Program-made: the position numbers and the translations under genes
Shown here: positions 486-63,048 of the stretch, one piece after another
Layout: each line of letters starts with the position of its first letter
Position numbering within the stretch: position 1 is the stretch's first letter
The notes under the pieces: model-generated
Databases searched by the model: none
What the model was told of the DNA's origin: nothing
What the model saw: only the letters and a program-made list of their open reading frames with translations
Source of the DNA: Megaustenia siamemsis
Taxonomy: Eukaryota > Mollusca > Gastropoda > Stylommatophora > Ariophantidae
DNA: 64,000 nucleotides
Assembly (NCBI GenBank): GCA_032433765.1
Contig: JAVIAB010000092.1
Location: 34,386,034-34,450,033 of the forward strand
Direction of reading: 5' to 3'

Positions 486-2639
486 AAACAACTACCACAT
501 CAAGCACAACAACAACAACAAAATCAAGCACATCAACAACACAAGGTTCAACAACCGCAAGCTCATCAACAACACCAGTTTCAACAACCTCAAGCACAAG
601 AACAACACCAGTTTCAACAACCTCAAGCTCATCAACAACCCCTGTTTCAACAACCACAAGTACAGCAACAACAGCAGGTTCAACAACCTCAAGCACAGCA
701 ACAACACCAGGTTCATCAACTTCAAGCACATCAACAACAGCAGGTTCAACAACTTCAAGCACAGCAACAACACCCGGTTCAACAACCTCAAGCACAGCAA
801 TAACTCCGGGTTCAACAACCTCAAGCTCATCAACAACCCCAGGTTCAACAACCTTAAGAACAGCAACAACGTCAGGTTCAACAACCTCAAGCACAGCAAT
901 AACTCCGGGTTCAACAACCTCAAGCTCATCAACAACACCAGGTTCAACAACCCTAAGAACAGCAACAACACCAGGATTAACAACCTCAAGCACAGCAACA
1001 ACACCAGGTTCAACAACCTCAAGCACATCAATAACACAAGGATCAACAACCTCAAGCACATCAACAACACCAGGTTCAACAACCTCAAGCACAGCAACAA
1101 CACCAAGTTCAACAACCTCAAGCACATCAACAACCCCAGGTTCAACAACCACAATCACATCAACAACCCCAGGTTCAATAACCACAAGCACATCAACAAC
1201 ACCAGGATCAACAACCTCAAGCACATCAACAACACAAGGATCAACAACCTCTAGCTCAACAACAACACTAGGTTCAACAACCTCAAGCACAGCAACAACA
1301 CCAAGTTCAACAACCTCAAGCACATCAACAACCCCAGGTTCAACAACCACAATCACATCAACAACACCAGGATCAACAACCTCAAGCAAAGCAACAACAC
1401 CATTTTTAACAACCTCAAGCACATCAACAACATCGGGTTCATCAACCTCAAGCACTTCAACAACACCAGGATCAACAACCTCAAGCTCATCAACAACCTC
1501 AGGTTCAACAACCCCAAGCACATCAACAATCTCAGGTTCAACAACCACTAGCGCATCAACAACACCAGGATCAACAACCTCAATCACATCAACAACACCA
1601 GGATCAACAACGTCAAGCTCATCAACAACCTCAGGTTCAACAACCCCAAGCACATCAACAATCTCAGGTTCAACAACCTCTAGCACATCAATAACACCAG
1701 GATCAACAACATCAAGCACATCAATAACACAAGGTTCAACAACCTCAAGCTCATCAACAACACCAGGATCAATAACCTCAAGCACAGCAAAAACACCAGG
1801 TTCAACAACCTCAAGCACATCAACAACACCAGGTTTAACAACCTCAAGCACAGCAACAACACCCGGTTTAACAACCTCAAGCACAGCAACAACCTCAAGC
1901 ACGTCAACAACATCAGGATCAACAACATCAAGCACATCAACAACAATAGGATCAACAACCTCAAGCTCATCAACAACACCAGGATCAATAACCTCAAGCA
2001 CAGCGACAACACCAGGTTCAACAACCTCAAGCACATCAACAACACCAGCTTTAACAACCTCAAGCACAGCAACAACACCCGGTTTAACAACCTCAAGCAC
2101 AGCAACAACACTAGGTTCAACAACCTCAATCACATCAACAACACCAGGATCAACAACCTCAAGATCATCAACAACCTCAGGTTCAACAACCCCAAGCACA
2201 TCAACAATCTCAGGTTCAACAACCTCTAGCACATCAACAACACCAGGTTTAACAACCTCAATCACATCAACAACACCAGGTTTAACAACCTCAAGCACAG
2301 CAACAACACCAAGATCAACAACATCACGGAGCTCAACTGAGACACCAAGCACATATGAAACCCCAAGCACACCAGAAACCCCAAGCTTTCCAGAGGCTCC
2401 AAGCTCAACTGAAGTCCCAAGCACACCAGAAACACCAAGTACACCTGAATCTCCAAGCACACCTATAACTCCAAGCTCACCTCAAGTGCCCAGTACGCCA
2501 AAAACACCCAGCACTCCACGTACTCCTAGCACAAAAACAACCCCCAGCACAACAACCCTAAGCGTAACAACCGCCCCTGGCACATCAACAACCCTAGGAA
2601 CATCATCAACCGTCAGCACATCAACAACCCCAGGCTCAG
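486..2639 (+). CDS. TS1: Thr/Ser-rich mucin-like exon, type A
   Basis: This internal exon of 2154 nt (718 codons) lies between acceptor ttttcttgacag and donor ggtaat, phase 1 at both ends. It encodes an almost pure Thr/Ser/Pro/Gly array built on an 11-residue unit such as [11 protein letters not shown] (33 bp). A C-terminal stretch of about 95 residues changes to Pro-rich [12 protein letters not shown] spacing, with acidic residues first and basic residues later. No Cys and no folded domain are visible. The composition is that of a heavily O-glycosylated mucin domain, so an extracellular or membrane-tethered role is inferred. The next exon in the chain is TS2. The exon is open throughout, and a long antisense frame is only a by-product of the repeat. 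Silk-like, cell-wall-like or mucin-like annotations would all fit on composition alone. Confidence 0.75.
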
Positions 2640-2864
2640 GTAATATTGGTAGCTTGCTTATAGTTGTTTACTCATTCAGCCCTTTGTGACTGTCACTAAT
2701 GTAGTATCACATAGATAAAGAATAGGTACACAAATGTGAAGTGAGGTTGTGGATAAATTTAAGGATCATTTTTCCAAGTACTTTGTACCTACTTCAGTGT
2801 TGTTGTTTTTTTTAAATTTCTTTTCTCATGCTATGTATCGAAAAAGAGAATGAGATGTTAACTT
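2640..2864 (+). other. Intron start after TS1, type A
   Basis: This short intronic stretch runs between the TS1 donor and a SINE insertion. It carries the motif ccctttgtgactgtcacta at 2680. It is clearly paralogous to the start of the intron after the type B exons, sharing the blocks gtggataaatt and gagaatgagatgttaact, which shows that type A and type B exons descend from one ancestor. Confidence 0.6.
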
Positions 2865-3120
2865 GGGGGGCTGATTGGTCTCGAGGCAAGTCGCTGGTCT
2901 GGGACAAAGAGTTTAAAAGTTGAAATCCCGATTTCACCAGTTTGGATTGTTGTTTGTGATTTCTCTCTGCGGCAACTACCCCTGGTCTCAGCAGCGAGGT
3001 CAGACTTTAAACGTTAATTACTCAACGACGGAAAAAGTATGAATACCTCAGAAGACTGCGTTAATTTGCCTAAACGGCGAGGGAAGCCTGTACACACGAC
3101 TGGCAGGGAAAATATGGTTT
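2865..3120 (+). mobile_element. SINE-1 (tRNA-derived), old copy
   Basis: The head ggggggctgattggtctcg is followed by a degenerate B-box-like gaaatcccg and then by a body shared with the SINE at 8358: a block around gatttctctctgcggc and another around actcaacgacggaaaaa. Divergence from that copy makes this an older insertion. It sits in the same place in units 1, 3, 4 and 5, so it predates their duplication. Confidence 0.6.
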
Positions 3121-3189
3121 AACACGCAAAATTCAGTTCCTTGTATCTTGGGACCTCACAAGAGGTTAAAACTGACGAATGCAAAAAAG

Positions 3190-4931: not shown

Positions 4932-6982
4932 AAACAACTACCACATCAAGCACAACAACAACAACAAAATCAAGCACATCAACAACACAAGGTTCAACAA
5001 CCGCAAGCTCATCAACAACACCAGTTTCAACAACCTCAAGCACAAGAACAACACCAGTTTCAACAACCTCAAGCTCATCAACAACCCCTGTTTCAACAAC
5101 CACAAGTACAGCAACAACAGCAGGTTCAACAACCTCAAGCACAGCAACAACAGCAGGTTCATCAACTTCAAGCACATCAACAACACCAGGTTCAACAACC
5201 TCAAGCACAGCAACATCACCCGGTTCAACAACTTCAAGCACAGCAATAACTCCGGGTTCAACAACCGCAAGCTCATCAACAACATCAGTTTCAACAACCT
5301 CAAGCACAAGAACAACACCAGTTTCAACAACCTCAAGCACAAGAACAACACCAGTTTCAACAACCTCAAGCTCATCAACAACCCCTGTTTCAACAACCAC
5401 AAGTACAGCAACAACAGCAGGTTCAACAACCTCAAGCACAGCAACAACACCAGGTTCATCAACTTCAAGCACATCAACAACACCAGGTTCAACAACTTCA
5501 AGCACAGCAACAACACCCGGTTCAACAACCTCAAGCACAGCAATAACTCCGGGTTCAACAACCTCAAGCTCATCAACAACCCAGGTTCAACAACCTTAAG
5601 AACAGCAACGTCGTCAGGTTCAACAACCACAAGCACAGCAACAACACCAGGTTCAACAACCTCAAGCACATCAATAACACAAGGATCAACAACCTCAAGC
5701 ACAGCAACAACACCAAGTTCAACAACCTCAAGCACATCAACAACCCCAGGTTCAAAAACCACAATCACATCAACAACCCCAGGTTCAACAACCACAAGCA
5801 CATCAACAACACCAGGATCAACAACCTCAAGCACATCAACAACACAAGGATCAACAACCTCAAGCTCAATAACAACACTAGGTTCAACGACCTCAAGCAC
5901 AGCAACAACACCAAGTTCAACAACCTCAAGCACATCAACAACCGCAGGTTCAACAACCACAATCACATCAACAACACCAGGATCAACAACCTCAAGCAAA
6001 GCAACAACACCATTTTTAACAACCTCAAGCACATCAACAACATCGGGTTCATCAACCTCAAGCACATCAACAACCCCAGGTTCAACAACCACAATCACAT
6101 CAACAACACCAGGTTCAACAACCACAAGCACATCAACAACACCAGAATCAACAACATCAAGCACATCAACAACACCAGGATCAACAACATCAAGCACATC
6201 AACAACACAAGGTTCAACAACCTCAAGCTCATCAACAACACCAGGATCAATAACCTCAAGCACAGCAACAACACCAGTTTCAATAACCTCAAGCTCATCA
6301 ACAACACCAGGTTCAACAACCTCAAGCACATCAACAACACCAGGTTCAACAACCTCAAGCACATCAACAACACCAGGTTTAACAACCTCAAGCACATCAA
6401 CAACACCCGGTTTAACAACCTCAAGCACAGCAACAACACTAGGTTCAACAACCTCAAGCACATCAACAACATCAGGATCAACAACATCAAGCACATCAAC
6501 AACACTAGGATCAACAACCTCAAGCTCATCAAGAACACCAGTTTCAACAACCTCAATCACAGCAACAACACTAGGATCAACAACCTCAAGCACAGCAACA
6601 ACACTAGGTTCAACAACCTCAAGCACATCAACAACATCAGGATCAACAACACCAGTTTTAACAACCTCAAGCACAGCAACAACACTAGGTTCAACAACCT
6701 CAAGCACATCAACAACACCAGGTTTAACAACCTTTAGCACAGCAACAACACTAGGTTCAACAACACCAAGCATATCGCCAACCCTAAGTTCAGCATCCCC
6801 AAGAACATCTACAACACCAGGTGCAACAACCCTAAGCACATCAACAACCCCAGGTTCTACAATCTCAAGCGCAACAGCAACCCCGAGCACATCTGCAACT
6901 CCAACCACATCAGCAACACCAAGAACATCAACAATCCCAAGCCAATCAACAACCCCTAGCATATCAACAACCTCAAGTGCAG
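4932..6982 (+). pseudogene. TS2: mucin-like exon, type B, with a 1-bp frameshift
   Basis: The acceptor and flank are the same as for TS1, but the 3' part differs. The last 70 or so residues are a distinct Ser/Thr/Ala tail, and the donor is ggtgat. The exon is 2051 nt, two more than a multiple of three, whereas the other five TS exons are exact multiples. The cause is visible near 5580: unit 1 reads aacaaccccagg and this copy reads aacaacccagg, so one C is missing. In the incoming phase 1 frame this gives a TAA at 5597-5599. TS6, its duplicate in unit 6, has a deletion across that stretch and stays open. Because the exon is phase 1-1, skipping it would leave the frame TS1 to exon a intact. A sequencing error in the repeat is the main alternative. 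Confidence 0.65.
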
Positions 6983-9748: not shown

Positions 9749-9912
9749 CTCCTCCCACACCCTGTGCGGAATATGAAAAGAATCACATCGTCGAGCATAC
9801 AAAACCCGTGTCACCATCAACACTTAATTTAGTTGAAATAGAAACAACAAATGATACTTCAGTCAAAGTTGATAATGGTACTGCATGGGAACTTGTACCT
9901 TTTAATAAGACA
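9749..9912 (+). CDS. Exon a of the 161-residue glyco-module
   Basis: This 164-nt exon lies between acceptor cttttattacag and donor gtaagt, entering in phase 1 and leaving in phase 0. It follows directly from the phase 1 donor of TS2. It reads PPTPCAEYEKNHI at the start and GTAWELVPFNKT at the end. It holds the first Cys of the module and three N-X-S/T sequons (NDT, NGT, NKT). No transmembrane segment is present. The order of an N-terminal Cys, a Trp-containing strand and then the IVAVRFIA strand of exon b is faintly like a galactose-binding (F5/8 C, fucolectin) beta-sandwich, but I cannot confirm that. Exon b follows after 5.7 kb and fits its phase. Confidence 0.7.
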
Positions 9913-15597: not shown

Positions 15598-15643
15598 GCG
15601 TTGACTAGCACTGAACGAATTGTGGCTGTTAGATTTATAGCTG
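15598..15643 (+). CDS. Exon b of the glyco-module
   Basis: A 46-nt micro-exon between acceptor tgctatttcag and donor gtatgt. It enters in phase 0, matching exon a, and leaves in phase 1. It encodes ALTSTERIVAVRFIA, a hydrophobic beta-strand-like segment. On its own it would not be convincing. The support is the exact phase fit on both sides and complete conservation in the duplicate. Confidence 0.6.
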
Positions 15644-18982: not shown

Positions 18983-19027
18983 ATAAGGAGGAATATACAG
19001 GTTTAAACAGCTCTCTATCCAAACTTA
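18983..19027 (+). CDS. Exon c of the glyco-module
   Basis: A 45-nt micro-exon between acceptor ttacattgcag and donor gtaagt, phase 1-1. It encodes DKEEYTGLNSSLSKL with one sequon (NSS). Only one synonymous change (aag/aaa) separates it from the duplicate at 58539. It fits exon b before it and exon d after it. Confidence 0.6.
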
Positions 19028-19648: not shown

Positions 19649-19779
19649 GAAATACAACCATATATATAACCAAGAAATTTCAGAACGGTTCAAGGGAAGT
19701 ATTAGTAACCTTCACACCAAATGGGACTAAAACTGATAATAACATATTTCCAAAGGATAGCACATACTATCGCGCGGAA
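19649..19779 (+). CDS. Exon d of the glyco-module
   Basis: A 131-nt exon between acceptor attgacacag and donor gtaagt, entering in phase 1 and leaving in phase 0. It reads RNTTIYITKKFQNGSREVLV, then TFTPNGTKTDNNIFPKDS and TYYRAE. It holds three sequons (NTT, NGS, NGT) and alternating hydrophobic strands, consistent with an extracellular beta-rich domain. Confidence 0.72.
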
Positions 19780-23393: not shown

Positions 23394-23490
23394 AAATTCC
23401 CAACAGGAAGTGATATTAGAACAGATACGGTATCTACTATGCGCTTACTAGTAAATAACAACGCAACAGCTTCTTATAAGTCATGCTCAG
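23394..23490 (+). CDS. Exon e of the glyco-module
   Basis: A 97-nt exon between acceptor ttttcttttacag and donor ggtaga, entering in phase 0 and leaving in phase 1. It reads KFPTGSDIRTDTVSTMRLL and then VNNNATASYKSCS. The last Cys closes the module (the first is in exon a), and one sequon (NAT) is present. Its phase 1 exit matches the phase 1 entry of TS3, so the chain can continue into the next mucin exon. Confidence 0.7.
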
Positions 23491-25830: not shown

Positions 25831-27144
25831 AACCAACAGCAACCCCAAGCACAATAACGCCAGGTTCAACAACCTCAAGCACATCAACAACCCCAAGCCC
25901 ATCAACTACCCCAAGTTCAACAACATCAAGCACATCAACAACCTCAGGTTCAACAACCCCAAGCCCATCAACTACCCCAAGTTCAACAACCTCAAGCACA
26001 TCAACAACACCAGGTTCAACAACCTCAAGCTCATCAACAACAACAAGTTCAACAACCTCAAGCTCCTCAACAACAGCAGGTGCAACAACATCAAGCACGT
26101 CAACAACACCAGGTTCAACAACACTAACCACGTCAACAACACCAGAATCAACAACATCAAGCACACCAACAACACCAGGATCAACAACTCCAGGATCAAC
26201 AACTTCAGGCACATCAACAACCCCAGGTTCAACAACATCAAGCGTATCAACAACACCAGGTTCGACAACCCGAAGCACATCAACAAGTTCAACAACCTCA
26301 AGCTCCTCAACAACAACGCTATCAACAACCCCAAGCACATCAACAACACCAGGATCAACAACCTCAAGCACATCAACAATCTCAGGTTCAACAACCTCTA
26401 GCACATCAACAACACCAGGATCAACAACAACAAGCACATCAACAACACAAGGTTCAACAACCTCAAGCTCATCAACAACACCAGGATCAATAACCTCAAG
26501 CACAGCAACAACACCAGGTTCAACAACCTCAAGCACATCAACAACACCAGCTTTAACAACCTCAAGCACAGCAACAACACGCGGTTTAATAACCTCAAGC
26601 ACAGCAACAACACTAGGTTCAACAACCTCAATCACATCAACAACAGCAGGATCAATAACCTCAAGATCATCAACAACCTCAGGTTCAACAACCCCAAGCA
26701 CATCAACAATCTCAGGTTCAACAACCTTTAGCACATCAACAACACCAGGTTTAACAACCTCAATCACATCAACAACACCAGGTTTAACAACCTCAAGCAC
26801 AGCAACAACACCAAGATCAACAACATCACGGAGCTCAACTGAGACACCAAGCACATATGAAACCCCAAGCACACCAGAAACCCCAAGCTTTCCAGAGGCT
26901 CCAAGCTCAACTGAAGTCCCAAGCACACCAGAAACACCAAGTACACCTGAATCTCCAAGCACACCTATAACTCCAAGCTCACCTCAAGTGCCCAGTACGC
27001 CAAAAACACCCAGCACTCCACGTACTCCTAGCACAAAAACAACCCCCAGCACAACAACCCTAAGCGTAACAACCGCCCCTGGCACAACATCAACAACCCT
27101 AGGAACATCATCAACCGTCAGCACATCAACAACCCCAGGCTCAG
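25831..27144 (+). CDS. TS3: Thr/Ser-rich mucin-like exon, type A
   Basis: This 1314-nt (438-codon) exon lies between acceptor ttgttcacag and donor ggtaat, phase 1-1 and fully open. The first third is its own variant, with units such as [11 protein letters not shown] and [13 protein letters not shown], and its acceptor flank is unlike the other TS exons. The last two thirds and the Pro-rich tail match TS1 ([16 protein letters not shown] and following). It is the shortest of the six and may be nearest to the ancestral state, since its flank matches the relic at 24081. In the chain it would follow exon e. Confidence 0.75.
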
Positions 27145-31799: not shown

Positions 31800-33117
31800 G
31801 TAATATTGGTAGCTTGCTTATAGTTGTTTACTCATTCAGCCCTTTGTGACTGTCACTAATGTAGTATCACATAGATAAAGAATAGGTACACAAATGTGAA
31901 GTGAGGTTGTGGATAAATTTAGGGATCATTTTTCCAAGTACTTTGTACCTACTTCAGTGTTGTTTTTTTTTTAATTTCTTTTCTCATGCTATGTATCGAA
32001 AAAGAGAATGAGATGTTAACTTGGGGGGCTGATTGGTCTCGAGGCAAGTCGCTGGTCTCGGGACAAAGAGTTTAAAAGTTGAAATCCCGATTTCACCAGT
32101 TTGGATTGTTGTTTGTGATTTCTCTCTGCGGCAACTACCCCTGGTCTCAGCAGCGAGGTCAGACTTTAAACGTTAATTACTCAACGACGGAAAAAAGTAT
32201 GATTACCTCAGAAGACTGCGTTAATTTGCCTAAACGGCGAGGGAAGCCTGTACACACGACTGGCAGGGAAAATATGGTTTAACACGCAAAATTCAGTTCC
32301 TTGTATCTTGGGACCTCACAAGAGGTTAAAACTGACGAATGCAAAAAAGACGACAAATTAATGCCTACCTCATTTGCTTTTTCGCAATCAAAGTGAGATA
32401 ATAATTTGTGGTCTTTTCCTCTTCTGTGGACCTCTGCTAAGTCTAGTTCTTCATAGAGTATATCACTTGGTATGCAGCCACTATTTTAAGTGACCAAACC
32501 ACTAATCTACGTTGATGAGCAGTGTGTAGATATTCGGGAGTCCTGTGAGAGTCATGGCAATCACTTTTGTCACGTTGTCCATCCAACTGATAGCTAGAAT
32601 ACAGCGCAGACATTACGCATGGAATGCCTTTTGCCTTCTCTCCTGCTTTGCATAAGCTATCCATGATTCGCTGCCACACAGAAGGATACTATAGGTCGTT
32701 TCAAAATATTTTGAAGGTGTTTAAAATTCCATATCTCTGCAACCAATTGATTGATAATGCTGAAATTGTGCATATGGTCTTGTGATTTGTTGGTCCCAAG
32801 AAGTACATTCATTTCCTCACCAACAAACGTATAGTTTTAAATATTCTTTATTTGAAGTATACAAATTTAAGGCATTTTGGTCAAACCATATATTTGGAGG
32901 AATTACCGCTTCATATGAGTGAGCACCCACGGACTTGTCATCTTGAACGTAATGCGCGCCAATTTCCCTGTTTTAAGCACTAAAAAACACATAAAACGCG
33001 TCATAGTTATAATTTTATATCCGGTGCATCCCATTTCCTGTCGTTTTGTTCTGATTTATGTGCAACGGAGTATCCTAATTATTGGGTAATTTCGTTAAAT
33101 TTGTGATCTGTTAGTCA

Positions 33118-34398
33118 ATGGGCATAAAAGTAAAGTTCCTTACATTGCAATCAGTGGCAATAAAGGTGTATAAATATTTTTGCATAGAAGCTAAGCGTGG
33201 AAAACTGTATCGAAGCATCTCAAAGCCAGAAAAGAGAACTATTCACGCATTGGGTATAAGCAAACGCTTTTTCAAACAAGTGCTTAAAGCTAACGGAGTG
33301 TCCAGTTCAATCAAGACTAGGACGCTAGGAAGAAAGAAAGTAGTAGATAGTTTTGACAAGGAAGTGATTAGAAGAGCAATTTGTAAAATGTTCGATTCCA
33401 AAGAAACTGTGACTTTAAGAAAACTGAAAATTCGACTGAGAGCAGAAAATGACATTGTTGTGTCGAAAACAACATTATGGAGAACTGTTAGAAGCATCGG
33501 TTTTACGTTTAGAAAGTACGATAGTGGTAGAAATGTCATCTGCGAGAAGCCGCACTTAGTTTCTATGAGGAGTAAATATTTACGTGAAGTACGGGAAATG
33601 CGTAACCAAGGTTATGATATTGTATTTCTAGATGAATCTTGGATAAATTCTCACCACACAAGTGCAAAGGAATGGCAGTTATCAGATGGAAGTATTAAAA
33701 GATGTGTACCCACTGGAAAAGGACAGCGTATTATAATGGCACATGCAGGCAGCCGAAAAGAAGGGTTGGTGAAAAATGCAGAACTTATATTCACCTCTAA
33801 TTATACTGACAACAGGGACTATCACACCGAGATGAATGGCCATATATTTAGAGAGTGGATTGAAAATACTCTTCTTCCAATTCTAGACAGACCATCCTGT
33901 CTGGTAATGGACAACGCGTCGTACCACAACGCTGTGGCAGAAGAAGACAAAATTCCTACATCTACCAGTACAAAAGATGTTATAAAGATTTGGCTAAGAA
34001 AGGAAGGAATTCCATTTAACGAGGAATTTTTGAAACCTGAATTACTGTCACTTGTTAAGAAATCGCAAAAGACCAAAGTATTCCAAATAGACAAAATCAT
34101 TCAACAGCATGGTCATACGTGCTTGAGACTGCCCCCTTATCATCCACAATTAAACCCCATTGAACTCGTTTGGGCAAAAATTAAAGGGCAGGTGGCAGCT
34201 GAGAATACAAGTTTTAAACTATGCGATATAAAAGGACTGACATATGCTGCTCTATCACAGATTGACAAAGATTTTTGGTGCAAATGTGAAGATCATGTCT
34301 TAAAAGAAGAAAATGACTATTGGAAAAAAAGATGGACTATCGTTCGTTCAGCCCAGATTATAGTAATCAATATGTTAGACTCCTCTGATTCAGAATAA
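33118..34398 (+). CDS. Transposase, IS630/Tc1/mariner superfamily, DDE with long D-E spacing
   Basis: A 426-residue intact protein that cuts and joins the element's ends. The N-terminal 140 residues are DNA-binding, with a helix-turn-helix-like SKTTLWRTVRSIGFTF at 116-131. The catalytic core has LDESWIN (Asp172), VMDNASYH (Asp265) and LPPYHPQLNPIELVW (Glu349). There are 83 residues between the second Asp and the Glu, far more than the 34-39 of ordinary Tc1 and mariner enzymes. The published DD82E ('Sailor') group is the nearest class I know of, but I have not compared sequences. Intact reading frame and terminal repeats suggest recent activity. Confidence 0.92.
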   Translation: MGIKVKFLTLQSVAIKVYKYFCIEAKRGKLYRSISKPEKRTIHALGISKRFFKQVLKANGVSSSIKTRTLGRKKVVDSFDKEVIRRAICKMFDSKETVTLRKLKIRLRAENDIVVSKTTLWRTVRSIGFTFRKYDSGRNVICEKPHLVSMRSKYLREVREMRNQGYDIVFLDESWINSHHTSAKEWQLSDGSIKRCVPTGKGQRIIMAHAGSRKEGLVKNAELIFTSNYTDNRDYHTEMNGHIFREWIENTLLPILDRPSCLVMDNASYHNAVAEEDKIPTSTSTKDVIKIWLRKEGIPFNEEFLKPELLSLVKKSQKTKVFQIDKIIQQHGHTCLRLPPYHPQLNPIELVWAKIKGQVAAENTSFKLCDIKGLTYAALSQIDKDFWCKCEDHVLKEENDYWKKRWTIVRSAQIIVINMLDSSDSE

Positions 34399-34815
34399 AT
34401 GAAATAATAATGGACGTTTTTATATGTCCGCATGATCAATCTTTAGCTAAAGTTGATAACGTTTTGAAAATGTAAAGATTCTTGATATGTGTACTGCAGG
34501 CATGCAAAGAAACTAAATCACTTTCATATGTCTTGTTTACGTAAAATAATGAAAGTCACATGGAAAGACATAAAACGAACAATGTAGCTCTTTACAGTGA
34601 AGAGGATCCCGTGCTTACATCGGACTCTTTAGTCACATGCGTACCCATAAACAATAACTTTGCTTGATATGTCATGCTCGTTATCGCTCGCAACGGATAA
34701 TTAATTTTTTAAAATGTATTCTTTGTTGTATATTGTTTAAATAGTTTTCATTAATGGAACTGTTTATACGCTGATTTGTTTTAGACCGTCTGTAAAGGCT
34801 ATAACATTGACATTC

Positions 34816-35127
34816 TCATAGTATTTTAAAGAAAGTAAACAATAGAAAGTAAACAGTTGATAAACGCCTCCAACTTTCAAGTTGTGTAGAGACGCCTATG
34901 TCGAGAAGCTGATTTCCATTAATGTACGGTAAATTATTTTCTCCAGGAGCAAAAAGATCCGCAAATTCACTGAGATCAAAGGAAAGTGCTGCTTCATGAT
35001 GAAGCATACTTCCTACATCATTAAATTTTGTGAAATCGGTGGGACCTTGGAAAAACAAGGCCAGATGCAAAAAATCAAGTTTGTAAGTGCAGGGAAAGAG
35101 GAGATATTTCATGTTAATCGTGAACAT
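34816..35127 (-). CDS. 103-codon frame inside the transposon, opposite strand
   Basis: It starts at the inner edge of the right terminal repeat and runs toward the transposase. It contains ALFFQGPTDFTKFNDVGSML and LSEFADLFAPGENNLPY, with balanced, protein-like composition. It is unchanged in the second copy. It may be a passenger gene, a captured host exon (an acceptor-like tttttccaag precedes the coding-looking part) or chance. I recognise no family. Confidence 0.3.
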   Translation of the reverse strand: MFTINMKYLLFPCTYKLDFLHLALFFQGPTDFTKFNDVGSMLHHEAALSFDLSEFADLFAPGENNLPYINGNQLLDIGVSTQLESWRRLSTVYFLLFTFFKIL

Positions 35128-35148
35128 TTAGATTTGAAACGACCAATA

Positions 35149-36546: not shown

Positions 36547-38883
36547 AAACAACTACCACATCAAGCACAACAACAACAACAAAATCAAGCACATCAACAA
36601 CACAAGGTTCAACAACTGCAAGCTCATCAACAACACCAGTTTCAACAACCTCAAGCACAAGAACAACACCAGTTTCAACAACCTCAAGCTCATCAACAAC
36701 CCCTGTTTCAACAACCACAAGTACAGCAACAACAGCAGGTTCAACAACCTCAAGCACAGCAACAACACCAGGTTCACCAACTTCAAGCACATCAACAACA
36801 GCAGGTTCAACAACTTCAAGCACAGCAACAACACCCGGTTCAACAACCTCAAGCACAGCAATAACTCCGGGTTCAACAACCTCAAGCTCATCAACAACCC
36901 CAGGTTCAACAACCTTAAGAACAGCAACAACGTCAGGTTCAACAACCTCAAGCACAGCAATAACTCCGGGTTCAACAACCTCAAGCTCATCAGCAACACC
37001 AGGTTCAACAACCCTAAGAACAGCAACAACACCAGGATTAACAACCTCAAGCACAGCAACAACACCAGGTTCAACAACCTCAAGCACATCAATAACACAA
37101 GGATCAACAACCTCAAGCACATCAACAACACCAGGTTCAACAACCTCAAGCACAGCAACAACCCCAGGTTCAACAACCACAATCACATCAACAACCCCAG
37201 GTTCAATAACCACAAGCACATCAACAACACCAGGATCAACAACCTCAAGCACATCAACAACACAAGGATCAACAACCTCTAGCTCAACAACAACACTAGG
37301 TTCAACAACCTCAAGCACAGCAACAACACCAAGTTCAACAACCTCAAGCACATCAACAACCCCAGGTTCAACAACCACAATCACATCAACAACACCAGGA
37401 TCAACAACCTCAAGCAAAGCAACAACACCATTTTTAACAACCTCAAGCACATCAACAACTTCGGGTTCATCAACCTCAAGCACTTCAACAACACCAGGAT
37501 CAACAACCTCAAGCTCATCAACAACCTCAGGTTCAACAACCCCAAGCACATCAACAATCTCAAGTTCAACAACCACTAGCGCATCAACAACACCAGGATC
37601 AACAACCTCAATCACATCAACAACACCAGGATCAACAACGTCAGGCTCATCAACAACCTCAGGTTCAACAACCCCAAGCACATCAACAATCTCAGGTTCA
37701 ACAACCTCTAGCACATCAATAACACCAGGATCAACAACATCAAGCACATCAATAACACAAGGTTCAACAACCTCAAGCTCATCAACAACACCAGGATCAA
37801 TAACCTCAAGCACAGCAACAACACCAGGTTCAACAACCTCAAGCACATCAACAACACCAGGTTTAACAACCTCAAGCATAGCAACAACACCCGGTTTAAC
37901 AACCTCAAGCACAGCAACAACCTCAAGCACGTCAACAACATCAGGATCAACAACATCAAGCACATCAACAACAATAGGATCAACAACCTCAAGCTCATCA
38001 ACAACACCAGGATCAATAACCTCAAGCACAGCGACAACACCAGGTTCAACAACCTCAAGCACATCAACAACACCAGGTTTAACAACCTCAAGCACAGCAA
38101 CAACACCCGGTTTAACAACCTCAAGCACAGCAACAACCTCAAGCACGTCAACAACATCAGGATCAACAACATCAAGCACATCAACAACAATAGGATCAAC
38201 AACCTCAAGCTCATCAACAACACCAGGATCAATAACCTCAAGCACAGCGACAACACCAGGTTCAACAACCTCAAGCACATCAACAACACCAGCTTTAACA
38301 ACCTCAAGCACAGCAACAACACCCGGTTTAACAACCTCAAGCACAGCAACAACACTAGGTTCAACAACCTCAATCACATCAACAACACCAGGATCAACAA
38401 CCTCAAGATCATCAACAACCTCAGGTTCAACAACCCCAAGCACATCAACAATCTCAGGTTCAACAACCTCTAGCACATCAACAACACCAGGTTTAACAAC
38501 CTCAATCACATCAACAACACCAGGTTTAACAACCTCAAGCACAGCAACAACACCAAGATCAACAACATCACGGAGCTCAACTGAGACACCAAGCACATAT
38601 GAAACCCCAAGCACACCAGAAACCCCAAGCTATCCAGAGGCTCCAAGCTCAACTGAAGTCCCAAGCACACCAGAAACACCAAGTACACCTGAATCTCCAA
38701 GCACACCTATAACTCCAAGCTCACCTCAAGTGCCCAGTACGCCAAAAACACCCAGCACTCCACGTACTCCTAGCACAAAAACAACCCCCAGCACAACAAC
38801 CCTAAGCGTAACAACCGCCCCTGGCACATCAACAACCCTAGGAACATCATCAACCGTCAGCACATCAACAACCCCAGGCTCAG
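36547..38883 (+). CDS. TS5: Thr/Ser-rich mucin-like exon, type A
   Basis: This 2337-nt (779-codon) exon is phase 1-1 and open. It equals TS4 except for loss of exactly one 33-bp unit near 37155: TS4 has [20 protein letters not shown] where TS5 has SSTATTPGS. It carries the same 72-codon internal duplication and the same SYPEAPS variant as TS4. TS6 follows. Confidence 0.78.
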
Positions 38884-40201
38884 GTAATATTGGTAGCTTG
38901 CTTATAGTTGTTTACTCATTCAGCCCTTTGTGACTGTCACTAATGTAGTATCACATAGATAAAGAATAGGTACACAAATGTGAAGTGAGGTTGTGGATAA
39001 ATTTAGGGATCATTTTTCCAAGTACTTTGTACCTACTTCAGTGTTGTTTTTTTTTTAATTTCTTTTCTCATGCTATGTATCGAAAAAGAGAATGAGATGT
39101 TAACTTGGGGGGCTGATTGGTCTCGAGGCAAGTCGCTGGTCTCGGGACAAAGAGTTTAAAAGTTGAAATCCCGATTTCACCAGTTTGGATTGTTGTTTGT
39201 GATTTCTCTCTGCGGCAACTACCCCTGGTCTCAGCAGCGAGGTCAGACTTTAAACGTTAATTACTCAACGACGGAAAAAAGTATGATTACCTCAGAAGAC
39301 TGCGTTAATTTGCCTAAACGGCGAGGGAAGCCTGTACACACGACTGGCAGGGAAAATATGGTTTAACACGCAAAATTCAGTTCCTTGTATCTTGGGACCT
39401 CACAAGAGGTTAAAACTGACGAATGCAAAAAAGACGACAAATTAATGCCTACCTCATTTGCTTTTTCGCAATCAAGGTGAGATAATAATTTGTGGTCTTT
39501 TCCTCTTCTGTGGACCTCTGCTAAGTCTAGTTGTTCATAGAGTATATCACTTGGTATGCAGCCACTATTTTAAGTGACCAAACCACTAATCTACGTTGAT
39601 GAGCAGTGTGTAGATATTCGGGAGTCCTGTGAGAGTCATGGCAATCACTTTTGTCACGTTGTCCATCCAACTGATAGCTAGAATACAGCGCAGACATTAC
39701 GCATGGAATGCCTTTTGCCTTCTCTCCTGCTTTGCATAAGCTATCCATGATTCGCTGCCACACAGAAGGATACTATAGGTCGTTTCAAAATATTTTGAAG
39801 GTGTTTAAAATTCCATATCTCTGCAACCAATTGATTGATAATGCTGAAATTGTGCATATGGTCTTGTGATTTGTTGGTCCCAAGAAGTACATTCATTTCC
39901 TCACAAACAAACGTATAGTTTTAAATATTCTTTATTTGAAGTATACAAATTTAAGGCATTTTGGTCAAACCATATATTTGGAGGAATTACCGCTTCATAT
40001 GAGTGAGCACCCACGGACTTGTCATCTTGAACGTAATGCGCGCCAATTTCCCTGTTTTAAGCACTAAAAAACACATAAAACGCGTCATAGTTATAATTTT
40101 ATATCCGGTGCATCCCATTTCCTGTCGTTTTGTTCTGATTTATGTGCAACGGAGTATCCTAATTATTGGGTAATTTCGTTAAATTTGTGATCTGTTAGTC
40201 A

Positions 40202-41482
40202 ATGGGCATAAAAGTAAAGTTCCTTACATTGCAATCAGTGGCAATAAAGGTGTATAAATATTTTTGCATAGAAGCTAAGCGTGGAAAACTGTATCGAAGC
40301 ATCTCAAAGCCAGAAAAGAGAACTATTCACGCATTGGGTATAAGCAAACGCTTTTTCAAACAAGTGCTTAAAGCTAACGGAGTGTCCAGTTCAATCAAGA
40401 CTAGGACGCTAGGAAGAAAGAAAGTAGTAGATAGTTTTGACAAGGAAGTGATTAGAAGAGCAATTTGTAAAATGTTCGATTCCAAAGAAACTGTGACTTT
40501 AAGAAAACTGAAAATTCGACTGAGAGCAGAAAATGACATTGTTGTGTCGAAAACAACATTATGGAGAACTGTTAGAAGCATCGGTTTTACGTTTAGAAAG
40601 TACGATAGTGGTAGAAATGTCATCTGCGAGAAGCCGCACTTAGTTTCTATGAGGAGTAAATATTTACGTGAAGTACGGGAAATGCGTAACCAAGGTTATG
40701 ATATTGTATTTCTAGATGAATCTTGGATAAATTCTCACCACACAAGTGCAAAGGAATGGCAGTTATCAGATGGAAGTATTAAAAGATGTGTACCCACTGG
40801 AAAAGGACAGCGTATTATAATGGCACATGCAGGCAGCCGAAAAGAAGGGTTGGTGAAAAATGCAGAACTTATATTCACCTCTAATTATACTGACAACAGG
40901 GACTATCACACCGAGATGAATGGCCATATATTTAGAGAGTGGATTGAAAATACTCTTCTTCCAATTCTAGACAGACCATCCTGTCTGGTAATGGACAACG
41001 CGTCGTACCACAACGCTGTGGCAGAAGAAGACAAAATTCCTACATCTACCAGTACAAAAGATGTTATAAAGATTTGGCTAAGAAAGGAAGGAATTCCATT
41101 TAACGAGGGATTTTTGAAACCTGAATTACTGTCACTTGTTAAGAAATCGCAAAAGACCAAAGTATTCCAAATAGACAAAATCATTCAACAGCATGGTCAT
41201 ACGTGCTTGAGACTGCCCCCTTATCATCCACAATTAAACCCCATTGAACTCGTTTGGGCAAAAATTAAAGGGCAGGTGGCAGCTGAGAATACAAGTTTTA
41301 AACTATGCGATATAAAAGGACTGACATATGCTGCTCTATCACAGATTGACAAAGATTTTTGGTGCAAATGTGAAGATCATGTCTTAAAAGAAGAAAATGA
41401 CTATTGGAAAAAAAGATGGACTATCGTTCGTTCAGCCCAGATTATAGTAATCAATATGTTAGACTCCTCTGATTCAGAATAA
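40202..41482 (+). CDS. Transposase, second copy
   Basis: A 426-residue protein identical to the first copy except Glu303Gly (FNEEFL to FNEGFL), in the long insert between the second Asp and the catalytic Glu. All catalytic residues are kept (Asp172, Asp265, Glu349). Confidence 0.92.
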   Translation: MGIKVKFLTLQSVAIKVYKYFCIEAKRGKLYRSISKPEKRTIHALGISKRFFKQVLKANGVSSSIKTRTLGRKKVVDSFDKEVIRRAICKMFDSKETVTLRKLKIRLRAENDIVVSKTTLWRTVRSIGFTFRKYDSGRNVICEKPHLVSMRSKYLREVREMRNQGYDIVFLDESWINSHHTSAKEWQLSDGSIKRCVPTGKGQRIIMAHAGSRKEGLVKNAELIFTSNYTDNRDYHTEMNGHIFREWIENTLLPILDRPSCLVMDNASYHNAVAEEDKIPTSTSTKDVIKIWLRKEGIPFNEGFLKPELLSLVKKSQKTKVFQIDKIIQQHGHTCLRLPPYHPQLNPIELVWAKIKGQVAAENTSFKLCDIKGLTYAALSQIDKDFWCKCEDHVLKEENDYWKKRWTIVRSAQIIVINMLDSSDSE

Positions 41483-41900
41483 ATGAAATAATAATGGACG
41501 TTTTTATATGTCCGCATGATCAATCTTTAGCTAAAGTTGATAACGTTTTGAAAATGTAAAGATTCTTGATATGTGTACTGCAGGCATGCAAAGAAACTAA
41601 ATCACTTTCATATGTCTTGTTTACGTAAAATAATGAAAGTCACATGGAAAGACATAAAACGAACAATGTAGCTCTTTACAGTGAAGAGGATCCCGTGCTT
41701 ACATCGGACTCTTTAGTCACATGCGTACCCATAAACAATAACTTTGCTTGATATGTCATGCTCGTTATCGCTCGCAACGGATAATTAATTTTTTTTAAAT
41801 GTATTCTTTGTTGTATATTGTTTAAATAGTTTTCATTAATGGAACTGTTTATACGCTGATTTGTTTTAGACCGTCTGTAAAGGCTATAACATTGACATTC

Positions 41901-42212
41901 TCATAGTATTTTAAAGAAAGTAAACAATAGAAAGTAAACAGTTGATAAACGCCTCCAACTTTCAAGTTGTGTAGAGACGCCTATGTCGAGAAGCTGATTT
42001 CCATTAATGTACGGTAAATTATTTTCTCCAGGAGCAAAAAGATCCGCAAATTCACTGAGATCAAAGGAAAGTGCTGCTTCATGATGAAGCATACTTCCTA
42101 CATCATTAAATTTTGTGAAATCGGTGGGACCTTGGAAAAACAAGGCCAGATGCAAAAAATCAAGTTTGTAAGTGCAGGGAAAGAGGAGATATTTCATGTT
42201 AATCGTGAACAT
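41901..42212 (-). CDS. 103-codon frame inside the transposon, second copy
   Basis: Same protein as at 34816-35127 with no residue change seen. Function unknown, possibly non-coding. Confidence 0.3.
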   Translation of the reverse strand: MFTINMKYLLFPCTYKLDFLHLALFFQGPTDFTKFNDVGSMLHHEAALSFDLSEFADLFAPGENNLPYINGNQLLDIGVSTQLESWRRLSTVYFLLFTFFKIL

Positions 42213-43629
42213 TTAGATTTGAAACGACCAATAATGATGCAGGCATTGTAAACTACGGCCTTTGTCAGTTTGCTGTTTTGCCAAAAATAGCCTAGAAAGT
42301 CGGTCGAAGGTGGTTGCAGCTTTAGCAATGCTAGTGTCAATTTTTGTGTTTAAAGATAGTTTGTCGTTGATGATGGACCCGCGGTCGTTTATGTCGTGTA
42401 AATTGTCAAATAGGCCAGCTTGCATGTTGCGCGCATACCTGCAACCCAATCGTAGGTTACAATTTATTATTGTTGATTTCTCTTGCATGGCTGGCGTGGA
42501 ATGCAACAGTCTGCTATTCGAATTTTCCCTTATCCTCATACACCAAATCTGGAAAGCAGACCTTGGCGAGACTGTAGTTGATAGGGACTGCCCCTCTTTA
42601 GAGGGCGGTAGCAATCCAGGAAGTCGATATACTTTTCCCAACGTTGAAACCAGCCCCGGGCGTCGTGCCCTGCACTCAATTTGCAGATTGACTTATAGCG
42701 GTTGGCTACTGCTTCCCGTGTTGTGTTAACATCAAATGATGAAGCTGGAGTGTCCTCTCCAGGGCGTGACCTTGAGCAGCTAAAGAAAGAATTAAATTGT
42801 TACCCTTGCAACATATTTTTTGTCTCCACGCAGCCGACAGATCTAACAGTGGAAGAACAGTCTGGTGCCAAATGCGTCCCATGAATTGTCTGTACAACGT
42901 TTAAATCAATACTGAACCGCCTTAGGGACTCCATCTCCGGATTTTCCATCAGGGTTTACTACCGAAGTCTATTGCATGAACGGGTAAGCCTGCTGGACAG
43001 TAGGAGTTAATAATCGGAGTCGACCTTCTCCTAGATGAGTTCCGATTTTTATACTAAAGGCTAGCACCTATTCGAGGACGAGGTTATGGCGCCACCGACT
43101 CGACGGTGACAACGGCATAGGTCATTTAATTGATTTGATAGAATTGGCTCCCCCACGCAACTAATTCACCTCACCCTCTGTAATCAGCAATTAACGTAGT
43201 TCTGAAGTACGCTGCTTTTTATGCTCTGTTCACAGCACACCTCTGTATCTAGACGCTGGTGATATTCTGAAAATATATCTTCTTTTCCGGGTTTGTCATA
43301 CAATTACTCTCTGTATTGTAAATCTTAAAAAAAAGGGATGGTCGGGACAGATTTATTGTGTAACTAATTCAAGACGAATTATGTTATCTGCACTTTTCAG
43401 CGCGATATCTATTTACAGGTGGTAGAAAATGGAATTTAAAATGTGTAAAATATGACTATAGAGAATAAAGTACGGAGTTTTAAAATGTAGTTAAAATTTA
43501 AAAAAAAAATTTAATATCAATATATAAATATTTGAAAATATTTTGTGCTTAGTGTTGTTCAATCAATCTGCTAAAGACAGCTTGTTAGAACACACATTTA
43601 ACTTCCTAATAAGAATATTTTCTTGACAG

Positions 43630-45516
43630 AAACAACTACCACATCAAGCACAACAACAACAACAAAATCAAGCACATCAACAACACAAGGTTCAACAACC
43701 GCAAGCTCATCAACAACACCAGTTTCAACAACCTCAAGCACAAGAACAACACCAGTTTCAACAACCTCAAGCTCATCAACAACCCCTGTTTCAACAACCA
43801 CAAGTACAGCAACAACAGCAGGTTCAACAACCTCAAGCACAGCAACAACAGCAGGTTCATCAACTTCAAGCACATCAACAACACCAGGTTCAACAACCTC
43901 AAGCACAGCAACATCACCCGGTTCAACAACTTCAAGCACAGCAATAACTCCGGGTTCAACAACCGCAAGCTCATCAACAACATCAGTTTCAACAACCTCA
44001 AGCACAAGAACAACACCAGTTTCAACAACCTCAAGCATAAGAACAACACCAGTTTCAACAACCTCAAGCTCATCAACAACCCCTGTTTCAACAACCACAA
44101 GTACAGCAACAACAGCAGGTTCAACAACCTCAAGCACAGCAACAACACCAGGTTCATCAACTTCAAGCACATCAACAACACCAGGTTCAACAACTTCAAG
44201 CACAGCAACAACACCCGGTTCAACAACCTCAAGCACATCAATAACACAAGGATCAACAACCTCAAGCACAGCAACAACACCAAGTTCAACAACCTCAAGC
44301 ACATCAACAACCCCAGGTTCAACAACCACAAGCACATCAACAACCCCAGGTTCAACAACCACAAGCACATCAACAACACCAGGATCAACAACCTCAAGCA
44401 CATCAACAACACAAGGAACAACAACCTCAAGCTCAATAACAACACTAGGTTCAACGACCTCAAGCACAGCAACAACACCAAGTTCAACAACCTCAAGCAC
44501 ATCAACAACCGCAGGTTCAACAACCACAATCACATCAACAACACCAGGATCAACAACCTCAAGCAAAGCAACAACACCATTTTTAACAACCTCAAGCACA
44601 TCAACAACATCGGGTTCATCAACCTCAAGCACATCAACAACCCCAGGTTCAACAACCACAATCACATCAACAACACCAGGTTCAACAACCACAAGCACAT
44701 CAACAACACCAGAATCAACAACATCAAGCACATCAACAACACCAGGATCAACAACATCAAGCACATCAACAACACAAGGTTCAACAACCTCAAGCTCATC
44801 AACAACACCAGGATCAATAACCTCAAGCACAGCAACAACACCAGTTTCAATAACCTCAAGCACATCAACAACACAAGGTTCAACAACCTCAAGCACATCA
44901 ACAACACCAGGTTTAACAACCTCAAGCACATCAACAACACCCGGTTTAACAACCTCAAGCACAGCAACAACACTAGGTTCAACAACCTCAAGCACATCAA
45001 CAACATCAGGATCAACAACATCAAGCACATCAACAACACTAGGATCAACAACCTCAAGCTCATCAAGAACACCAGTTTCAACAACCTCAATCACAGCAAC
45101 AACACTAGGATCAACAACCTCAAGCACAGCAACAACACTAGGTTCAACAACCTCAAGCACATCAACAACATCAGGATCAACAACACCAGTTTTAACAACC
45201 TCAAGCACAGCAACAACACTAGGTTCAACAACCTCAAGCACATCAACAACACCAGGTTTAACAACCTTTAGCACAGCAACAACACTAGGTTCAACAACAC
45301 CAAGCATATCGCCAACCCTAAGTTCAGCATCCCCAAGAACATCTACAACACCAGGTGCAACAACCCTAAGCACATCAACAACCCCAGGTTCTACAATCTC
45401 AAGCGCAACAGCAACCCCGAGCACATCTGCAACTTCAACCACATCAGCAACACCAAGAACATCAACAATCCCAAGCCAATCAACAACCCCTAGCATATCA
45501 ACAACCTCAAGTGCAG
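43630..45516 (+). CDS. TS6: Thr/Ser-rich mucin-like exon, type B
   Basis: This 1887-nt (629-codon) exon has acceptor ttttcttgacag and donor ggtgat, phase 1-1, and is fully open. It duplicates TS2 but lacks its frameshift. The stretch that contains the missing C in TS2 has been removed here by an in-frame repeat contraction. The tail PSISPTLSSASPRTS and following is the type B ending, distinct from the Pro-rich type A tail. It leads in phase to exon a of the second cassette. Confidence 0.78.
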
Positions 45517-48452: not shown

Positions 48453-48616
48453 CTCCTCCCACACCCTGTGCGGAATATGAAAAGAATCACATCGTCGAGC
48501 ATACAAAACCCGTGTCACCATCAACACTTAATTTAGTTGAAATAGAAACAACAAATGATACTTCAGTCAAAGTTGATAATGGTACTGCATGGGAACTTGT
48601 ACCTTTTAATAAGACA
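48453..48616 (+). CDS. Exon a, second cassette
   Basis: Duplicate of 9749-9912: 164 nt, phase 1 in, phase 0 out, same splice sites. I see no residue difference. It follows TS6. Confidence 0.7.
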
Positions 48617-53893: not shown

Positions 53894-53986
53894 ACAGATA
53901 ATCGGGGCCTGCGACTCGTATGTCGATGATTCTCACGTTAAGAAGAGTCTACCGACTACAACAAACCCAAGCATATGGATACCTTA

Positions 53987-54800: not shown

Positions 54801-54845
<45 letters not shown>

Positions 54846-55166: not shown

Positions 55167-55212
55167 GCGTTGACTAGCACTGAACGAATTGTGGCTGTTA
55201 GATTTATAGCTG
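55167..55212 (+). CDS. Exon b, second cassette
   Basis: Duplicate of 15598-15643: 46 nt, phase 0 to 1, same residues and splice sites. Confidence 0.6.
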
Positions 55213-58538: not shown

Positions 58539-58583
58539 ATAAAGAGGAATATACAGGTTTAAACAGCTCTCTATCCAAACTTA
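58539..58583 (+). CDS. Exon c, second cassette
   Basis: Duplicate of 18983-19027: 45 nt, phase 1-1, one synonymous difference. Confidence 0.6.
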
Positions 58584-59205: not shown

Positions 59206-59336
59206 GAAATACAACCATATATATAACCAAGAAATTTCAGAACGGTTCAAGGGAAGTATTAGTAACCTTCACACCAAATGGGACTAAAACTGATAATAAC
59301 ATATTTCCAAAGGATAGCACATACTATCGCGCGGAA
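59206..59336 (+). CDS. Exon d, second cassette
   Basis: Duplicate of 19649-19779: 131 nt, phase 1 to 0, no residue difference seen. Confidence 0.72.
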
Positions 59337-60189: not shown

Positions 60190-61955
60190 TAGTTCGGTCC
60201 GAAATTTGTGCCAATAGAGTTTATTAACTATCTCGGAAACTGTTTTATGAATTTCAGTAATTATTTTTCATTAAATCTTATTTTTTCATCGACCTTAAGT
60301 CCGATTTTTTCCCCTACTGTCATGCATTTAGAAAATATTTTTATTTCTTTGAGGTATATAAAAATATGATTTTCTTGGTTGTCATAATGTTTAGAAGTAT
60401 ACAATACATACATTTGTTGTAATCAGATCATCGTTTAAAAGAAGCAACTTGTTTCACGTGTTCTCCGCACAATCTTAGCACCATCTCGCACGTACTGAAC
60501 CGTAAATTGTAAGTCGCGCCATTGAGAAATTTATTTTGTCATTTCCGATTTCTTGTTAAATAGGTTCAGAGGCGTATTTTGACAAGCTATTTATTATTAA
60601 TGTATATTCTCTTATATGTGATAATGTGTATGCTATAGTGAAGTGACTACTTGCTTTTTAAAATCATGAAGTGTTTAAAGTGTAAATTCATCACTATGCA
60701 AAAGATAAATGTTTTATTGTACAGACACTTTTGCAAGGGATCTAAAAGAGGTCGGTTATATTACGATATGAAAATAAAACAGAAAAAAACAACAAGAACA
60801 GCTCTAAATATAGATAGAAAGTCTTTAAATGGATGGTTAGGACAGAACTTTGAATCTGCAGAGGCGACGGTCAAGCAAGGGAGAAAAATGAAAGTTGATG
60901 TTTTTGACAAAGATGTTATTAGACGTGAGATTTTGAACATTTTTGAATCGAATCAGCTTGTTACACTGCGCAAACTTAAAGTTCGACTGCAATTAGAATA
61001 TTATACTGAACTATCAAAAACGACTCTGTGGAAGATCGTAAGAGGCGTTGGTTTAACTTTTCCGAAATCTACTAGTGGTAGAACTATTGTTTTTTTTTAA
61101 AACCACACTTGATTACTGTCCGAAGCAAATAATTGAGGCAGATCAGTGAGCGACGAATGGAAGGCTAAGATATAGTGAATTTGGATGAAACATGGATCAA
61201 TGCTCTTCATACATATGAAAAAGAATGGCAATCAGTTGACAGAGAAAATAAAAGAAGCATTCCAAGCAGCAAAGGACAACGCAATATATTAGTACATGCT
61301 GGTAGTATAAAGAATGGACTTCTTAATGACGCACAACTTATTTTTTCAATCAAAGTCTACAGATGGTATGAACTACCATACTGAAAAGAATGGACGAATT
61401 TTCATAGACTGGATAGAGAACACTCTACTCCCCATTCTGGATTGACCTTCATGCCTTGTAATGAACAATGCATCCTATCATAATGCGGTAGCACTGGAGA
61501 ACAAAGATCTTAATTCGTCAAGCACAAAAGATCAAATCAGCACATGGCTTAGAAAAGATTTTTTTCCTTTCACACCATCCAGTAAAAACTAGAGTTATTG
61601 CAACTTGTTAGACAGACTAAGAAGACAACGTTATATCAAATTGATAAAAAAATTGCAAATTAGGGCCACACATCTCTTTGCCTCCCACCTTATCATTCGG
61701 ACCCCAACCAAATAGAACTTGTGTGGGCTAAAGTCAAAGGCCAAGTTGCTGCGCAGAACACGACGTTTAAAATGGGTTCTGTTAAAGAATTGACGCGAAT
61801 GCCTTCTCAACGATAGACATTGAGTACTTGAGAAAATGTGACGACCATGTGCTCAGAGAAGAGGAACAATACTGACGACGAGATGGATTGCAGTTTGCCC
61901 AACCGATAACAATTGTTAACCTCTTAGAGACTTTTCTGATTCTGAATGAGGTATG
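60190..61955 (+). pseudogene. Dead Tc1/mariner-superfamily transposase, second copy
   Basis: Duplicate of 20636-22395, broken in the same places (first frame ends after TSGRTIVFF, then LDETWIN in a new frame). The inactivation came before the duplication. Confidence 0.75.
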
Positions 61956-62951
61956 TCGGACATGAACACAATTTTTTGTTGATGGCACACTTACTATTTG
62001 ATGACTATGTGAGTTTGCAGTTCTGGTCGTTCCATATATTTTGTTGATGACACGACTTATAATTGGCGACTATGTGTGTTTGATACCTTGGTCAAAGTTT
62101 ACATATCTCTATGACAAGGATAAAAATCAAATGAAAAATTGTGCCCTCTTCAAAGTGGTAAGGATACGCCTTTGACATGCATTGTTAGAAAACCAAAGTA
62201 ATTTAAAGTCACATCACAAGTCAGATGTTTCTTTATTTGTTTTCAATATAATTGTTCTTATGCAATCTGTAATTTCTCCTTTAGTACGTTCTAATAGCAC
62301 ATATAAATGTTTATTAGTATCTTAGATTATTTTAAATGAAGAAAACAATCAGCCAGCTAACATCTTCAATTGTATTATTTACAAAAGTATACTCTTGCTG
62401 ACCAAAGAATAAAAATTAAAATGCCACTGACATGACTCACGTCGGACAGGCCTTGTTAAGACCATTATACAGGGCACAGTAATATGGTAAAGAAAACAAG
62501 ACAGAGCGAGAAAGCGGCTGGATGACAAAATCAAATAAAAAGATAAGATTAGCATCGACAAGCGTTCCCCATTGACTACCATTGTTACTGGAATAATACT
62601 GATGAAGATACTTTTGTCGTTGAATCTATAAAAGTACTGATTTTACATTTATGTTTAAATAATCAATTCGTGCTGTTAATTTAGAATAGGGATGTTTGAA
62701 TTATCTACAAAAGATGGATATGAAAAGTGAAAATTGTAGTTAAATTTGTTCTTATGAAAGTTGATGGACTGATTTTCTTAAACATCTATTTTTGTAATAG
62801 GTGTTATTGTCGTGTAACTTTTAAATTGTAATTGCAATATTATTAAAATGTTGCAATTTTGTTGTAGATACTTAAATCGCTGCTTCACTATTTTGTATCC
62901 CCTTTGTGATATTTTATTTTCTACTTCCATACCATAAATTTTCTTTTACAG

Positions 62952-63048
62952 AAATTCCCAACAGGAAGTGATATTAGAACAGATACGGTATCTACTATGC
63001 GCTTACTAGTAAATAACAACGCAACAGCTTCTTATAAGTCATGCTCAG
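62952..63048 (+). CDS. Exon e, second cassette
   Basis: Duplicate of 23394-23490: 97 nt, phase 0 to 1, same residues. The phase 1 exit implies a further phase 1 exon beyond the window. Confidence 0.7.

Follow-up and report, generated by a model that had tools for sequence, protein, structure and literature searches.

A candidate modular mucin gene with duplicated class 1-1 blocks in the gastropod Megaustenia siamemsis

Class 1-1 blocks in mucin-type genes

Symmetrical class 1-1 modules are the established currency of exon shuffling in animals (PMC8001218). In SmPoMuc of Schistosoma mansoni, a mucin exon is tandemly repeated together with its flanking introns, with polypurine tracts in between, and unequal crossing-over and gene conversion have been proposed (PMC2576457). 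MUC16/CA125, a giant Ser/Thr-rich mucin, contains 156-residue repeats encoded by five exons each (PMC3431878), and trefoil modules of class 1-1 occur in frog mucins (PMC7350206). Both the repetition of mucin exons and in-frame growth through class 1-1 modules are thus already known (PMC8001218, PMC2576457, PMC3431878). We describe a 64-kb, AT-rich stretch of the Megaustenia siamemsis genome in which simple repeats and mobile elements are numerous (contig JAVIAB010000092.1; hereafter, the window). It contains six long Thr/Ser (TS) exons, TS1 to TS6, and two copies of a five-exon cassette, a to e, which encodes a 161-residue module. The window is probably the internal part of a very large modular gene for a secreted or surface mucin, one that would grow in frame by class 1-1 blocks.

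As in the class 1-1 modular proteins, the blocks have phase-1 ends on both sides, lengths divisible by three (all but TS2), an extracellular-type composition and a history of duplication without loss of frame. Unlike in those proteins, it is low-complexity Thr/Ser sequence, not a folded domain, that has been duplicated most, and five exons are needed to encode the module. The likeness to SmPoMuc is one of layout: its repeated exon measures 27 bp in units of about 1 kb, whereas the exons here span 1.3-2.4 kb, the repeat units measure about 7 and 39 kb, and a separate five-exon module is present. The module resembles the MUC16 repeat in its 161 residues over five exons. However, each MUC16 repeat is a SEA domain whose cysteine loop lies at 59/79, while the module has no Pfam match and has its cysteines at positions 6 and 160. 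The frog mucins, like this locus, carry class 1-1 modules inside a mucin, but Pfam gave no trefoil match for the present module, which is not cysteine-rich. Such a gene is not described in the excerpts of the snail mucus literature (PMC10475054, PMC8542881). The arrangement was also not reported among the matches listed for mucin exon phase, snail mucins and mucin gene duplication, again in excerpt, which is no proof of absence. The most novel part of the locus is the module, for which no relative was found in the collections searched.

Reading frame of the Thr/Ser exons

The six TS exons lie on the forward strand, at the following positions of the window:
486..2639, forward: TS1, Thr/Ser/Pro exon, 2154 bp, phase 1-1, open
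4932..6982, forward: TS2, Thr/Ser/Pro exon, 2051 bp, both ends phase 1, interior frameshifted
25831..27144, forward: TS3, Thr/Ser/Pro exon, 1314 bp, phase 1-1, acceptor flank unlike those of the other TS exons
29430..31799, forward: TS4, Thr/Ser/Pro exon, 2370 bp, phase 1-1
36547..38883, forward: TS5, Thr/Ser/Pro exon, 2337 bp, phase 1-1
43630..45516, forward: TS6, Thr/Ser/Pro exon, 1887 bp, phase 1-1, sister of TS2

All six exons are bordered by an AG acceptor and a GT donor. The five open exons encode 438-790 residues each in 11-residue units (33 bp), with a Thr/Ser/Pro content of 80-81%, which are the characteristics of the Pro/Thr/Ser (PTS) regions of mucins. Phase-1 ends combined with a length divisible by three, the properties that define a class 1-1 module, were found in TS1, TS3-TS6 and both cassettes. 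The flanks are of more than one kind: the acceptor flank of TS3 is unrelated to those of the remaining TS exons (48-49% identity), as are the donor flanks of TS2 and TS6 (46-51% identity), yet all are in phase 1. Retention of the TS introns would extend the frame past either type of donor into a short hydrophobic tail followed by a stop (2640-2686, 6983-7026 and other TS ends), which is probably an effect of the T-rich intron starts.

TS2 is the exception. A sequence-only reading of the window had assigned phase 1-1 to each of the six TS exons and had concluded that every junction fits. The first statement holds for TS1 and TS3-TS6, and the second fails through TS2 as assembled, since its 2051 bp leave a remainder of 2 over 3 and 19 stops occur in its entry frame. 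In TS2, the 60-bp window that begins at 5531 and the one that begins at 5591 have Thr/Ser in different frames, and the net shift is one base in the region 5.53-5.65 kb. Alignment to TS1, TS4 and TS5 gives one single-base gap, while comparison to the close copy TS6, which is open, gives gaps of 131 and 33 bp. Because both ends of TS2 are in phase 1, a reading of the borders only overlooked the shift. It may be a consensus error in the repeat, or a real lesion.

Five of the six TS exons are divisible by three and free of stops in the Thr/Ser frame, whereas their other forward frames contain 14-30 and 2-9 stops. We compared the gaps in exon and intron alignments. None of 47 internal gaps was off-frame in the ten TS pairs that exclude TS2, all 5 of the 5 pairs that contain TS2 show an off-frame gap, and 34 of 37 gaps were off-frame in twelve gap-bearing intron rows (a subset of the possible intron pairs, with a nested transposon row and two exon rows excluded). 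These counts are not independent, since the intron rows overlap and the TS pairs share sequence, and gap placement in repeats is ambiguous. The contrast also arises in part from frame-keeping 33-bp slippage, but gaps of 3, 6, 15, 18 and 51 are present too.

Changes at TCA codons point in the same direction. Across TS4, TS6 and the initial 700 bp of TS3, 1652 codons in all, TCA has changed to TAA or TGA in 0 cases and to TTA in 16, compared to 40 A/G and 41 T variants in the other xCA codons (Fisher p 1.2e-4; GGA, a native glycine codon, was omitted), although this p-value is optimistic because the repeat units are related. Comparing TCA to ACA gave 0/358 versus 17/529 (p 1.9e-4). When 196 random substitutions were simulated on TS6, a mean of 7.3 stops resulted, and 0 of 2000 trials ended with zero stops. 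By these criteria of frame and composition, the TS exons are well supported as predicted coding sequence.

The opposite proposal, that the TS arrays are 33-bp minisatellites without coding function, open only incidentally, and that the cassette is a chance chain, is the least likely of the rivals and in our judgement very improbable. It would account for the antisense frames, which are long too owing to composition, for the survival of any frame under 33-bp slippage, and for a cassette chain that is unremarkable in splice score and phase. It would also account for the lack of a third-position excess among substitutions in TS pairs without TS2 (for example 70, 65 and 61 for TS1/TS6; 112, 69 and 82 for TS3/TS6). 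This lack speaks against simple purifying selection and fits a domain under constraint on composition instead of sequence. The frame-specific absence of stops and off-frame gaps, the missing TCA-to-stop changes and the simulation argue against minisatellites.

The five-exon cassette and its module

The cassette exons follow TS2 (copy 1) and TS6 (copy 2):
9749..9912, forward: exon a, copy 1, 164 bp, phase 1-0
15598..15643, forward: exon b, copy 1, 46 bp, phase 0-1
18983..19027, forward: exon c, copy 1, 45 bp, phase 1-1, weakest donor score of the set
19649..19779, forward: exon d, copy 1, 131 bp, phase 1-0
23394..23490, forward: exon e, copy 1, 97 bp, phase 0-1
48453..48616, forward: exon a, copy 2, 164 bp
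55167..55212, forward: exon b, copy 2, 46 bp
58539..58583, forward: exon c, copy 2, 45 bp, one synonymous change
59206..59336, forward: exon d, copy 2, 131 bp
62952..63048, forward: exon e, copy 2, 97 bp

Both cassettes have AG/GT borders and splice to 483 nt, or 161 stop-free codons. The exon lengths of 164/46/45/131/97 in both copies bear out the phases first read by eye (1-0, 0-1, 1-1, 1-0, 0-1, and 1-1 as a whole), and the cassette is flanked by Thr/Ser exons of matching phase. The two coordinates given in the sequence-only reading, 486 and 63048, agree with TS1 and the second exon e. The copies differ at 1 of 483 sites, a synonymous one, where the intron mismatch rates predict about 2; with so few differences, selection on the cassette exons is not visible.

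We searched for chance chains with the weakest cassette splice sites as thresholds and exons of 40-200 bp. Between TS2 and TS3 there are 25 distinct candidate exons on the forward strand and 40 on the opposite strand. These form 26 phase-fitting five-exon chains on the forward strand and 190 on the opposite strand, with 15 and 43, respectively, at about the observed total score or better. The corresponding numbers for copy 2 are 26 and 182 chains, and 15 and 67 at about the observed score or better; eight Markov sequences gave 0-6 phase-fitting chains. The larger number of chains on the opposite strand indicates that phase fit alone is no proof of the cassette. Thus, the argument of the sequence-only reading that such a fit is unlikely by chance stands for the TS exons, through the gap, stop and TCA tests, and falls for the cassette judged by phase alone. 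The coding status of the predicted cassette is accordingly less certain than that of the TS exons.

The predicted module has only two cysteines, at positions 6 and 160 of 161, which could close it end to end through a disulphide. It contains 8 N-glycosylation motifs, compared to 3.1 in shuffles (p 0.003). The spliced module found nothing significant in Pfam, NCBIfam, PDB or a protein collection, a search that did not include animal genomes, and the multi-copy relatives with mucin spacers expected by the sequence-only reading did not appear. No Pfam family matched at E up to 1. Queried as residues 630-790 of the TS6-module product, the module drew 351 candidates, none with E up to 10, while the bare 161-residue query gave 22 candidates under a length filter; relatives longer than about 1400 residues or without an exact shared five-residue word would be missed. 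Exon a alone had no relative in viral or prokaryote contigs, as expected of an animal gene (b-e were not searched singly). SEA repeats of the MUC16 type did not appear in the Pfam scan of the module, although a very remote SEA relation is still conceivable. In gel-forming mucins (MUC2/MUC5 type), von Willebrand D, C8 or CK domains flank the PTS region; the module had no Pfam match, in a scan that covered nine chosen proteins of the window, where no gene end was identified. The module is thus a candidate for a new extracellular domain. Two identities suggested by motifs, SEA and FN3, were dropped for want of a Pfam match, and the best PDB match, the interleukin-10 receptor beta chain (E 0.17, residues 36-109), is no better than chance and was disregarded.

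Exon e allows a different division of the locus, into a tandem row of separate mucin genes, each of which would end by read-through of e to a nearby stop, with TS3 following the 5' exons of the next gene. Read past its donor, e does reach a stop within 45 nt, overlapped by an AATAAA; its donor score is low (1.2, with only c lower), and the repeat period is about 39 kb. A frame at 24686-24946, between e and TS3, opens with a hydrophobic run like that of a signal peptide but, as judged by eye, is probably antisense sequence of a long interspersed nuclear element (LINE). On the other hand, the end of e and the start of TS3 share their phase, a one-in-three chance. Moreover, the two copies show three adjacent mismatches 9-11 nt beyond the e donor, compared to 1/483 in the cassette exons, as if the tail were noncoding, although this may be a single event. 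We regard separate genes as unlikely, and favor one gene in which e would be spliced to the next TS exon.

Duplication of whole blocks

The introns between TS exons form one family. TS1-TS2 and TS3-TS4 differ by 1.88% mismatches, TS3-TS4 and TS4-TS5 by 1.5-2.1%, and TS4-TS5 and TS5-TS6 by only 0.32%. The latter two contain copies of a Tc1/IS630-like transposon:
32692..35146, forward: first copy, TS4-TS5 intron, TA on either side, 12-bp terminal inverted repeat
39776..42231, forward: second copy, TS5-TS6 intron, 3 mismatches over 2458 aligned positions

Both 2.46-kb copies occupy the same TA, and the TS1-TS2 and TS3-TS4 introns are without it. The 427-residue transposase frame (33115-34395) is open and matches DDE_3 in Pfam (E 6e-18); its closest protein is 91% identical, and the best one assigned to a species, from the land snail Bradybaena similaris, 56% identical, among the best 120 of 288 matches. 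As evidence of a molluscan source this is only a lead, since transposons can move between species. A single mismatch and one 33-bp unit separate TS4 from TS5; TS1 and TS4 are 99.7% identical with a 216-bp gap. The common transposon at the same TA indicates that an exon and intron block was duplicated after the insertion.

On a larger scale, the TS2-cassette recurs about 39 kb further on in near-identical form as the TS6-cassette. Where they align, the cassette introns of the two copies are 98.4-100% identical; mismatches amount to 0-0.6%, and one stretch of 1914 bp has none. Copy 2 has extra stretches at 45696-45848 (TS6-a intron), 51234-51827 and 52965-53236 (a-b intron), which are missing from the aligned blocks of copy 1. 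There were thus at least two rounds of block duplication. The sequence that precedes TS1 matches the last part of the TS3-TS4 intron at 99.4%, and that to the right of the second e is 95% like that past the first e, up to the window end. By these likenesses, the array probably runs on beyond both ends of the window.

The 39-kb repeat could be an assembly error, in which the TS2-cassette and TS6-cassette are two alleles placed in series. The low mismatch rates of the cassette introns, including the 1914-bp stretch, and the extra sequence in two copy-2 introns are what alleles can have. However, such an error would leave unexplained both the pair TS4/TS5 with its common transposon and the 1.5-2.1% divergence of the TS3-TS4 intron from the TS4-TS5 intron, both of which belong to a single copy. 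We consider the error improbable, and it would remove only the 39-kb repeat, leaving the gene model in place.

In the modular mucin gene that we favor, long Thr/Ser/Pro stalks, presumably O-glycosylated, would alternate with the 161-residue module. Each stalk would correspond to one class 1-1 exon and each module to a five-exon class 1-1 cassette, so that misaligned recombination between near-identical introns could add or remove whole blocks in frame. Unequal crossing-over is a plausible copying mechanism here. In two comparisons, the TS1-TS2 intron had no stretch of at least 150 bp in common with the introns that precede and follow the cassette. This suggests that recombination between like introns would add TS blocks one at a time, but cassettes only as part of the complete unit. 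The proposal of in-frame growth by whole blocks is thus backed by visible duplications (TS4/TS5 with the transposon, TS2-cassette/TS6-cassette), although one TS exon is frameshifted and the principle is long known. Similarly, a modular mucin ectodomain is still the best reading of the locus, qualified by TS2 and by a cassette whose phase fit is not significant alone.

Several results weigh against this gene model. These are the one-base shift in TS2, the lack of third-position excess, the excess of opposite-strand chains, the scarcity of differences between the cassette exons, and the searches with the module and with exon a. Furthermore, no 5' or 3' gene end was identified in the window.

If the model is correct, the locus provides an ordered example of the growth of a mucin-type gene in frame by whole exons and introns, with one step marked by a transposon that predates the copy. 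A more speculative extension, which we put forward only tentatively, is a single giant mucin gene of higher-order tandem repeats, with kilobase-long stalk exons and an orphan five-exon module bearing two cysteines and N-glycans, in which individuals would differ by whole stalks or modules and would make length-polymorphic mucus or cell-coat proteins. The frame would be buffered because any block, even TS2, could be skipped or lost. Should the array be real and polymorphic, the locus would let the rate of length change in a mucus protein be measured.

The introns contain further features. An EGF-like stretch (MEGF-type, by eye) at 13869-14321 in the a-b intron has one in-frame stop and a sub-threshold laminin-EGF match in Pfam (E 0.028). 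It is repeated in copy 2 within 53237-55166, and the block containing it is 100% identical between copies. Part of it, 13894-14010, has the form of a 117-bp exon with AG/GT borders, a length divisible by three and phase 1-1; there is no place for it between a and b, because a ends and b starts in phase 0. Scans of the window for Rfam families and tRNAs were negative. LINE-like pieces were recognized by eye at 9396-9782 (Pfam-negative) and at 11155-11850 on the minus strand, and a reverse transcriptase frame lies at 17170-17946 in the b-c intron (RVT_1, E 6e-27). Broken transposase-like frames, by eye kin of the Tc1/IS630-like element, occur in the d-e intron at 21085-22300 (with no Pfam transposase match for 21085-21540) and from 60642. 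GAAA-type polypurine tracts at 24132-24524 and 63690-64000, located between e and the next TS block, can be compared to the tracts in the excerpted description of SmPoMuc (PMC2576457).

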